This document shows, piece by piece, positions 5,662 to 36,187 of a stretch of 36,187 bases of DNA; the stretch's first letter is position 1, and each line of letters opens with the position of its first letter. The translations under genes were made by a program, and so were the position numbers. Source of the DNA: Nitrosomonadales bacterium (GTDB lineage: Bacteria > Pseudomonadota > Gammaproteobacteria > Burkholderiales > Gallionellaceae); contig CANJMS010000015.1 in assembly GCA_947475825.1 (NCBI GenBank), positions 1 through 36,187 of the forward strand, given 5' to 3'. Under the pieces are notes generated by a model, which made no database searches, was not told where the DNA came from, and was given only the letters and a program-made list of their open reading frames with translations.

Positions 5662-5913
5662 ATTCCATTTCTCATTAGAAACAACATGTGTGTAGGAGCG
5701 GCTTTAGCCGCGAAACCCAAATAATTCCATTTTGCGTTAGAAAGGAGAACAAGACGGCAAGGATGAGGTGACGAAGACAGTACATTTGAGTACGGCTAGG
5801 AGCCGAGGACGATGCCAACACAGTTATCGTTTTTAACGCGAATTGGAATAAATCGCGGCTAAAGCCGCTCCTATACCCGATAAATTATTGTAGTTTTTAA
5901 CGAGAAATGGAAT
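5662..5913. repeat. Nested palindromic repeat: outer inverted repeats, inverted REP pair, inner short element
   Basis: The outer arms are ATTCCATTTCTCATTAGAAA (5662-5681) and its near-perfect inverse ending AACGAGAAATGGAAT at 5913. Inside each arm is a copy of a REP-like palindrome in opposite orientation: GTAGGAGCGGCTTTAGCCGC (5692-5711) and GCGGCTAAAGCCGCTCCTA (5855-5873). Between them sits a 126-base member of the short element family found twice more in this window. The outer arms resemble the inner element's own ends (both start ATTCCA and continue to a GTTA-A-rich stretch), so one family member appears nested in another. It forms the breakpoint of the TonB receptor remnant. Confidence 0.75.
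5724..5849 (-). repeat. Short inverted-repeat element (MITE-like), copy 1, internally deleted
   Basis: Read on the minus strand, this copy begins ATTCCAATTCGCGTTAAAAA and shares with copies 2 and 3 the blocks TCGGCTCCT and GTACTCAAATGTACTGTCTTC, then CCTCATCCTTGCCG. The left end on the plus strand is ATTCCATTTTGCGTTAGAAA, an imperfect inverse of the other end. It lacks the internal bulged hairpin of the other two copies: GGCTCC is joined directly to TAGCCGTACTC. It encodes no protein. Confidence 0.75.
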
Positions 5914-12954: not shown

Positions 12955-13141
12955 ATTCCAATTTCTGATAAAAACGATCACAGTGTTGGCTTCGTTTTTG
13001 GCTCCTGAGTGAAACAACTAGCCCTCCCACTAAGCAACCAAAAGACGGTTGCAAAGTGGTTGGTTATAGCCGTACTCAAATGTACTGTCTTCGTCGCCTT
13101 ATCCTTGCCGCCTTGCGCTCCTGTTGATCAGAAATTGGAAT
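12955..13141 (+). repeat. Short inverted-repeat element (MITE-like), copy 2, with structured core
   Basis: The copy has perfect 15-base terminal inverted repeats: ATTCCAATTTCTGAT at 12955-12969 and ATCAGAAATTGGAAT at 13127-13141. The interior shares with copy 3 GATAAAAACGATCAC, GGCTCCTG-GTGAAACAACTAGCC, GGTTATAGC and GTACTCAAATGTACTGTCTTC, plus CCTTGCCGCCTTG. No ORF of note lies in it. It occupies the gap between the metH start and the DUF6279 gene. No clear target duplication is visible. Confidence 0.8.
13019..13066. ncRNA. Covarying bulged hairpin in element copy 2
   Basis: Three helices stack. TAGCC (13019-13023) pairs with GGTTA (13062-13066, one G-T pair). CCACT (13027-13031) pairs with AGTGG (13055-13059). 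GCAACC (13034-13039) pairs with GGTTGC (13047-13052). The loop AAAAGAC (13040-13046) caps them. The equivalent in copy 3 (23637-23684) keeps the fold but has TGACT/AGTCA and CCCAGC/GCTGGG, with the same loop. The strand that acts is unknown; the structure could form in RNA or in single-stranded DNA. No known RNA family is claimed. Confidence 0.55.
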
Positions 13142-23567: not shown

Positions 23568-23636
23568 TGGTTATTCCAATTCCCGATAAAAACGATCACT
23601 GTGTTACTTACGTCTTCGGCTCCTGTGTGAAACAAC

Positions 23637-23684
23637 TAGCCATATGACTAACCCAGCAAAAGACGCTGGGCAAGTCATTGGTTA
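23637..23684. ncRNA. Covarying bulged hairpin in element copy 3
   Basis: TAGCC (23637-23641) pairs with GGTTA (23680-23684), TGACT (23645-23649) with AGTCA (23673-23677), and CCCAGC (23652-23657) with GCTGGG (23665-23670), capped by AAAAGAC (23658-23664). Helix lengths, internal loops (3/2 and 2/2 bases) and the cap are the same as in copy 2, while five base pairs differ by paired substitutions. Confidence 0.55.
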
Positions 23685-23710
23685 TAGCTGTACTCAAATG
23701 TACTGTCTTC

Positions 23711-23818
23711 ACCCGCAAGCACTAAAAGTACGCAATCCGCTATGGGCTCAAGCCCATGCGGAGTTGTCAGGGGTAGACCGTGGTTGTAAAGCCGATGAAT
23801 CGGCAACAACCACGCACC
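23711..23818. repeat. 108-base double-hairpin block nested in element copy 3
   Basis: It is absent from copies 1 and 2, where ACTGTCTTC runs straight into GTC(A/G)CC. It contains two strong palindromes. CCGC-T-ATGGGCT (23737-23748) pairs with AGCCCATGCGG (23751-23761). GTGGTTGT (23780-23787) with GCCGAT (23791-23796) pairs with ATCGGC (23799-23804) and ACAACCAC (23806-23813). It looks like a small palindromic element that inserted into the larger one. It encodes nothing recognisable. Confidence 0.6.
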
Positions 23819-23910
23819 GTCGCCTCATCCTTGCCGCCTTGTGCTCCCTTTTATCGGAAACTGAAATTACTCGGCTTGATGTTTACTCGAACGGAAAAAA
23901 TTACACGCAA

Positions 23911-35943: not shown

Positions 35944-36187
35944 ATGGCAGCAAAAGCGAAACCAGCAGCAAAAAAGGCTGTAGCCAAGAAGGCAGCACCT
36001 GCTAAAAAAGCAGCGCCCGCCAAGAAGGCTGTAGCCAAGAAAGCAGCGCCTGCTAAAAAAGCAGTAGCCAAAAAAGCGGCTCCAGCTAAAAAAGCAGCGC
36101 CTGCTAAAAAAGCAGTAGCCAAAAAAGCGGCTCCAGCTAAAAAAGCAGCGCCTGCTAAAAAAGCAGTAGCCAAAAAAGCGGCTCCAG
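35944..36187 (+). CDS. Histone H1-like Lys/Ala/Pro-rich protein, cut by the window end
   Basis: The frame opens MAAKAKPAAKKAVAKKAAP and continues with repeats of the kind KKAVAKKAAPAKKAAPA to the edge. Such proteins bind DNA nonspecifically and resemble AlgP/HctB-type bacterial H1-like proteins. The start is firm: AAAGGAGG (35931-35938) lies 5 bases before ATG 35944, a near-perfect Shine-Dalgarno suggesting high expression. The C-terminus is unknown. Confidence 0.85.
   Translation, partial: MAAKAKPAAKKAVAKKAAPAKKAAPAKKAVAKKAAPAKKAVAKKAAPAKKAAPAKKAVAKKAAPAKKAAPAKKAVAKKAAP
36061..36187. repeat. 51-base tandem repeat inside the H1-like gene
   Basis: Two identical 51-base units (36061-36111 and 36112-36162) and the start of a third (from 36163) encode a 17-residue Lys/Ala/Pro block. 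The units are identical at the DNA level, including synonymous positions, so they arose or were homogenised recently. Confidence 0.85.

Follow-up and report, generated by a model that had tools for sequence, protein, structure and literature searches.

A hairpin unit inserted in a carrier repeat

The window analysed here, a stretch of 36,187 nucleotides from a Gallionellaceae genome, contains two copies of a 48-nt hairpin (TAGCCA..TGGTTA), read directly in the sequence at 13019-13066 and 23637-23684 on the plus strand. Each hairpin belongs to a unit of ~60 nt composed of a leader with the consensus GATGAAACWAC (11-12 nt), the hairpin itself and a T. In the first copy the leader (GAGTGAAACAAC, 13007-13018, plus) has 12 nt against the 11 nt of the consensus, as judged from the sequence and from a leader profile of 179 placements; the hairpin, made of an outer helix, a 5-bp helix, a 6-bp helix and an AAAAGAC loop, scored 63.1 bits in the search of its own genome, and the T at 13067 (plus), an extra base with respect to empty carrier copies, is either the last base of the unit or a target duplication of one base. 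The second copy comprises the leader GTGTGAAACAAC (23625-23636), the hairpin (68.2 bits) and a terminal T at 23685, all on the plus strand.

Both units are held by a MITE-like carrier element with terminal inverted repeats (12955-13141 and 23573-23867, plus), which measures about 126 bp without the hairpin and has many hairpin-free copies in the same genome. One of these, at 5724-5851 on the minus strand, provides the empty site, with the junction CCT|AGCC at 5798|5797. The existence of the carrier in this form implies that the hairpin unit is an insertion. The original prediction, which counted this empty carrier as copy 1, considered the hairpin to be part of the inverted-repeat element. It does sit there, and many copies of this genome share one fixed position in the carrier, at CCT|AGCC, but it constitutes a unit of its own with its own target rule, which in relatives stands alone, outside the carrier, in many other places.

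The second carrier also harbors further hairpin-like inserts at about 23711-23817 (CACCCGCAAG..GTGGTTGT..ACAACCACGCAC), in which GCAATCCGC..GCGGAGTTGTCA is nested; other carrier copies hold the outer insert at this same position, and the inner one represents a third hairpin family (GCAATCC..GGARTTGWCA) with four distinct matches within the fetched loci. Overlapping direct repeats with a 33/18-base spacing occupy 35970-36173 of the window.

Compensatory changes maintain the hairpin helices

The inner helix reads GCAACC/GGTTGC in the copy at 13019 and CCCAGC/GCTGGG in that at 23637, and the middle helix CCACT/AGTGG and TGACT/AGTCA, respectively; five of the eleven pairs of these helices differ, each change is compensated, and the AAAAGAC cap is common to both, so that the hairpins, helices and cap described in the original prediction were found exactly as proposed. 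The outer helix TAGCCA/TGGTTA contains one G-T pair; in the copy at 13019, which reads TAGCCC, the innermost pair of this helix is not formed.

Genomic copies were collected, and covariation was assessed by stem-pair counts compared with shuffled and slid structures. For 18 distinct units, 97.7% of the stem cells were paired, eight pairs had changed on both sides, and the covariation score was 0.378, as compared with 0.129 (sd 0.018) for shuffles and at most 0.083 for slid structures. One of five measures, further pair types, was not above shuffles in this set, since 295 of 500 were as high. In a larger set of 134 model matches (119 distinct), 97.1% of the cells were paired and 11 pairs had changed on both sides; four measures were reached by none of 500 shuffles and further pair types by two. 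The alignments of 18 and 119 distinct units therefore agree except for further pair types in the smaller one, and both sets are biased towards paired sequences. A less biased test used a pattern fixing only TAGCCAT, ACT, AGT and TGGTTA, with no fold filter; it gave 126 distinct matches in the fetched records, 92 of which are 48 nt long. In these 92 48-mers the free stem cells were paired in 692 of 736 cases (mean 506 and maximum 531 in 1000 shuffles of the 3' sides), 53 were fully paired, and stem 2 showed 31 different 5' arms.

Together, these results exclude chance as the source of the pairing, now that more copies are considered, and show that the helices are maintained by compensatory change. 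Two outcomes would have spoken against a conserved structure, namely other copies with unpaired substitutions in place of pairing and a fold restricted to the two window copies, and neither is what the 134 matches and the 92 unfiltered 48-mers show; the proposal that the structure itself matters is thus upheld, the fold having been kept by selection over many copies. At hairpin positions 8 and 42, in the internal loop, 57 of the 92 units carry T opposite C and 31 carry C opposite T, almost never anything else being found, that is, a swapped pyrimidine mismatch.

The question of which strand folds received a mixed answer. Among 64 distinct stem-2 arm pairs, chosen by the leader alone, A-C mismatches outnumbered G-T ones by 30 to 6 (p = 7e-5), and by 19 to 6 (p = 0.015) when the loop-closing pair was left aside, related arm pairs not being independent in either count. 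Because an A-C on the given strand is a G-T on the other, it may be the complementary strand whose fold is maintained. The outer G-T pair, present in 133 of 136 cases, speaks against this, being a wobble on the given strand. For 124 of 131 units DNA folding energies were more favourable on the complementary strand, a difference that perfectly paired controls largely reproduced. The form that matters may be either the RNA or the DNA.

Borders, target and self-insertion

The borders of the unit are sharp. Over 179 placements the leader is preceded by Y (C 0.77, T 0.21) and T (0.86), with little conservation outside, and a T directly follows the hairpin in 93% of 159 non-tandem placements. Insertion thus occurs after YT, always in one orientation relative to the target, and the target duplication amounts to at most one T. 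A junction-spanning homologue without the insert was found in the fetched loci for 140 of 196 placements, a few of these being spurious (e.g., 164_G and 57_T); among the matches listed, the empty sites included the carrier, CCCTCT|CCCGC..GCGGGAGAGGG palindromes and GTCATT|CCCGC..GCGGGAAT repeats. A second variant, with the leader GCTTTGCA or GCTCTGCA, accounted for 17 placements; its insertion sites mostly have a purine on one side and AC on the other, no extra base being added, and include the loop (AAAAG|AC) of a different unit as well as GGCGGATA|ACGCTACGCTCATCCGCC repeats.

The unit enters its own foot as well as its own loop and stem; it also enters other repeats and, in frame, protein genes. 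Nested copies were found at L017, where one unit lies in the apical loop of a second, and at L049, where the stem is entered at ACT|AA; tandem copies also occur, and the foot TAGCCA/TGGTTA is present in almost all copies. Insertion of a new unit at the CT|AGCC of an older one must yield the order leader-leader-hairpin-hairpin. In agreement with this order, 14 of 16 tandem dimers had at least two leaders (two in 13, three in one). The remaining two were scored as having none, although by eye one of them (L069) has two degenerate leaders, the other (L098) having none. The 193 single units had one leader in 156 cases, none in 25, two in 11 and three in one.

Targets are often palindromic repeats. 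Raw folding energies differed strongly between insertion sites and controls (126 vs 922), but the sites are also G+C-richer; after correction for composition, a foldability z below -2 was seen in 25% of insertion sites and 17% of controls, a small effect (p = 3e-4). The insertion point was enclosed by a helix in 102 of 119 sites and in 404 of 461 controls, which is no difference. Orientation with respect to the replication fork showed no significant bias (64 to 43, p = 0.053) in a lagging-strand test that used rounded genome lengths and placed the terminus opposite dnaA.

Distribution of the unit

A covariance model (R1; 48 positions, 17 pairs) matched 37 times in the genome of origin. Within the Gallionellaceae, matches were present in 132 of 150 sampled genomes and 14 of 15 genera; because 40 candidates were scored per genome, the copy numbers are lower bounds. 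Genomes in a single contig contained 34, 33, 25, 10 and 5 hairpins. Among other genomes of the class, with 16 candidates scored per genome and stricter filters, matches occurred in only 3 of 368. Two of these (G472 and G305) are true units, that of G305 showing the pairing changes TAACCA/TGGTTA and CCT/AGG, absent from the seed set. The third (G517, 36 bits) is doubtful, as on inspection it lacks the TAGCCA/TGGTTA foot.

A wider genome scan gave at least 120 matching stretches, the titles among the matches listed being Gallionella, Gallionellaceae, Gallionellales, Sideroxydans, Ferrigenium, Nitrosomonadales, Sulfuricella and Proteobacteria. Three matching stretches were found in IMG/VR, and none in plasmid and phage collections with one 61-base query each. 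Rfam gave no match in the window at gathering scores, nor, with E values of up to 10 allowed, in a stretch of 501 bases that contains several units, in line with the original statement that no named family with this shape was known to its author. We found no earlier description of hairpin or palindromic repeats for Gallionella or Gallionellaceae in a search that was thin on subscription papers, so an earlier account may exist.

Search for the mobiliser

The Y1 transposase domain (PF01797) was undetected in the genome of origin (G000), in the single-contig genomes G080 (34 hairpins) and G090 (10 hairpins), and in the hairpin carriers G022, G066 and G062, among others. It was present in 117 of the 150 family genomes; 18 of the 20 Y1-negative genomes listed (13 more are unlisted) carry hairpins, and one genome (G008) has 13 Y1 matches and no hairpin. 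Of the 30 best Y1 loci one had a hairpin near the Y1 gene, and the 20 RAYT-like regions had none; these loci and regions are part of all Y1 matches. Five of 14 genomes with hairpins and 5 of 8 without them have a reverse transcriptase domain (RVT_1), which was undetected in the other nine carriers, among them G080, G089, G090, G093 and G019. The IS110 DEDD recombinase (PF01548) was found in 2 of 14 and 6 of 8, respectively. The presence of RAYT/Y1, reverse transcriptase or IS110 does not track that of the hairpins, and each was undetected in several hairpin-rich genomes. These families are not the mobiliser, or at any rate not one that resides in each hairpin-rich genome; a Y1 transposase could still act from outside the genome.

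In-frame insertions in protein genes

In one sense frame the 60-nt unit stays open and gives 20 codons (about DETTSHSTKLSKDDSQVAGY). A survey of 228 placements yielded 89 open-frame rows long enough to list, from which ten ORFs were picked by eye for a domain scan. In the genome of origin EarP has 40 extra residues, that is, 120 nt or twice 60, and residues 1-73 and 114-446 adjoin in the EarP of a sister genome (G004). The earP gene of this sister lacks exactly these 120 nt, corresponding to two units, at CACACT|GCAGAAG, with flanks 93.2% and 90.8% identical and the frame kept. Mobility, which had been offered as one possible use of the hairpin, is real.

Compared with solved homologues, there are 47 residues in EarP at a place where 4 would be expected, in IspE (L230) 56 extra residues against 0, and in MutS (L179) 64 against 8. 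The inserts in IspE and MutS consist of the unit plus further in-frame inserted sequence, and for this reason a single tolerated site may collect inserts from several repeat families. In a methyltransferase (L228) the unit lies inside the domain. Likely additional cases are an AAA ATPase (L227), a metalloprotease-like ORF whose Pfam match is weak (L187) and an oligopeptidase A (L113), for which the alignment covers only the part that follows the insert. Three ORFs were set aside: in CoaE (L157) and MiaA (L160) the insert is upstream of the domain, probably before the true start, and may be non-coding, and L219 had no Pfam match. At two other loci (L229, around 7364 on the minus strand, and L260, around 5608) the unit occurs in a second open frame (MKxLAIRL..), in a signal-peptide-like context. 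The in-frame copies are, by analogy with Rickettsia palindromic elements, best seen as tolerated selfish insertions.

Discussion

We consider it probable that the unit is a non-autonomous mobile palindrome of ~60 bp. Its hairpin would serve as a handle for an enzyme acting in trans, and the unit, taken up as folded single-stranded DNA, would be joined 3' of YT, by analogy with the hairpin handling of the IS200/IS605 or REP type. This single-strand route, taken as a mechanism step by itself, is put forward more tentatively, a little short of an even chance. We are similarly cautious about a wider account, somewhat less than probable, according to which the unit is a transposon reduced to a 20-codon hairpin: carried through most genomes of the family by an enzyme or by host functions, it would keep its fold as its bases change, telescope into itself at one internal CT|AG site and repeatedly add 20-residue blocks to housekeeping proteins whose frames stay open.

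The failure of any tested transposase family to track the copies, together with the frequency of palindromic repeats among the targets, would also agree with the absence of a dedicated mobiliser, host replication and repair (template switching at palindromes, topoisomerase joining) copying the hairpin into YT sites. The structural preference of the targets is, however, modest, and the conserved foot and leader, the exact and repeated borders, the constant orientation and the lack of target duplication favour a sequence-specific enzyme acting on the hairpin, so that we regard the host-function explanation as doubtful, while giving it some weight. Less likely still is movement through RNA, in which the transcribed unit would fold and be copied by a reverse transcriptase into a nicked YT site. 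The compensatory changes are RNA-like, and insertion is oriented and its 3' end defined; yet no RVT_1 was detected in nine of the 14 hairpin carriers examined, and 133 of 134 matches span a compact unit, all reporting model positions 1-48, with no 5'-truncated series among these full-model matches.

Two further readings appear very improbable. If the hairpin stayed in place as a functional RNA, or as a regulatory element belonging to the carrier repeat, selection for that role would account for the covarying helices and for the many copies at one fixed carrier position in the genome of origin. It would not account for carrier copies lacking the hairpin, nor for copies in unrelated targets, protein genes and other units, and for the copies outside the carrier it is contradicted by the empty earP orthologue. 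An integron-type attC site, recombined by the integron integrase, is just as hard to sustain: it would also be a single-strand hairpin with a conserved foot and could yield nested and tandem copies, but the foot TAGCCA/TGGTTA does not give the attC core boxes RYYYAAC/GTTRRRY. A hammerhead ribozyme, whose core is CUGANGA..GAAA, was considered because the leader holds CTGATGAAAC, and was rejected as there is neither a stem II nor a closing stem and Rfam gave no match.

The preferred reading, a mobile palindrome handled in trans, bears on a wider problem. To our knowledge, the movement of very small palindromic elements such as those of Rickettsia is an open question, and we know of no identified mobiliser for the latter. 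The present family represents a clean system: the length is fixed at 60 nt, the borders are exact, the target is defined and one orthologous site is empty; its internal self-target records successive insertions, hundreds of copies are available across one bacterial family, and the in-frame copies constitute a natural series of 20-residue insertions in housekeeping proteins.

By sequence, the unit matches nothing that was searched; by kind, it groups with Rickettsia palindromic elements and REPs. Like MITEs it is short, non-coding and multicopy, and its carrier is itself MITE-like; unlike them, it has no terminal inverted repeats beyond the hairpin foot, its leader and T ends not being inverted repeats, and no multi-base target duplication. 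It differs from IS110/bridge-RNA elements and from retroelement or group II derivatives in that the DEDD recombinase accompanies only 2 of 14 hairpin carriers and the reverse transcriptase 5 of 14. Derivatives of IS200/IS605 insert in one orientation 3' of a short target without duplication and have a hairpin near the end. The unit likewise inserts in a fixed orientation behind a short target, duplicating no more than one T, and departs from them in having a single hairpin, no left and right pair and no resident Y1 in several carriers. By description it can also be likened to the small dispersed repeats of Nostoc (SDR5) and to mitochondrial double-hairpin elements, very small hairpins that, like the unit, are nested in other repeats.

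As with REPs and REPINs, many short hairpins with a conserved foot occur per genome in one bacterial group. In contrast to REPs with a RAYT, several hairpin-rich genomes have no detected cognate RAYT/Y1 and the 20 RAYT-like regions are hairpin-free; the copies, moreover, insert into genes and into each other, unlike REPs or REPINs, and the GTAG is found only where the leader is of the T variant, on the complementary strand of the unit and 3' of its hairpin. The Rickettsia palindromic elements are described, in the portions of the sources available to us, as small palindromic mobile repeats, ~150 bp in size according to a review, that lie in frame in protein genes and encode a conserved peptide (PMC10969869, PMC3733652). 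The Gallionellaceae unit is likewise a palindrome with a conserved fold that inserts in frame into protein genes (earP and those of IspE, MutS and the methyltransferase). As far as these descriptions extend, its length of ~60 bp, its apparently different sequence and its Gallionellaceae host set it apart from the Rickettsia families, as do its exact YT target and its telescoping self-insertion.
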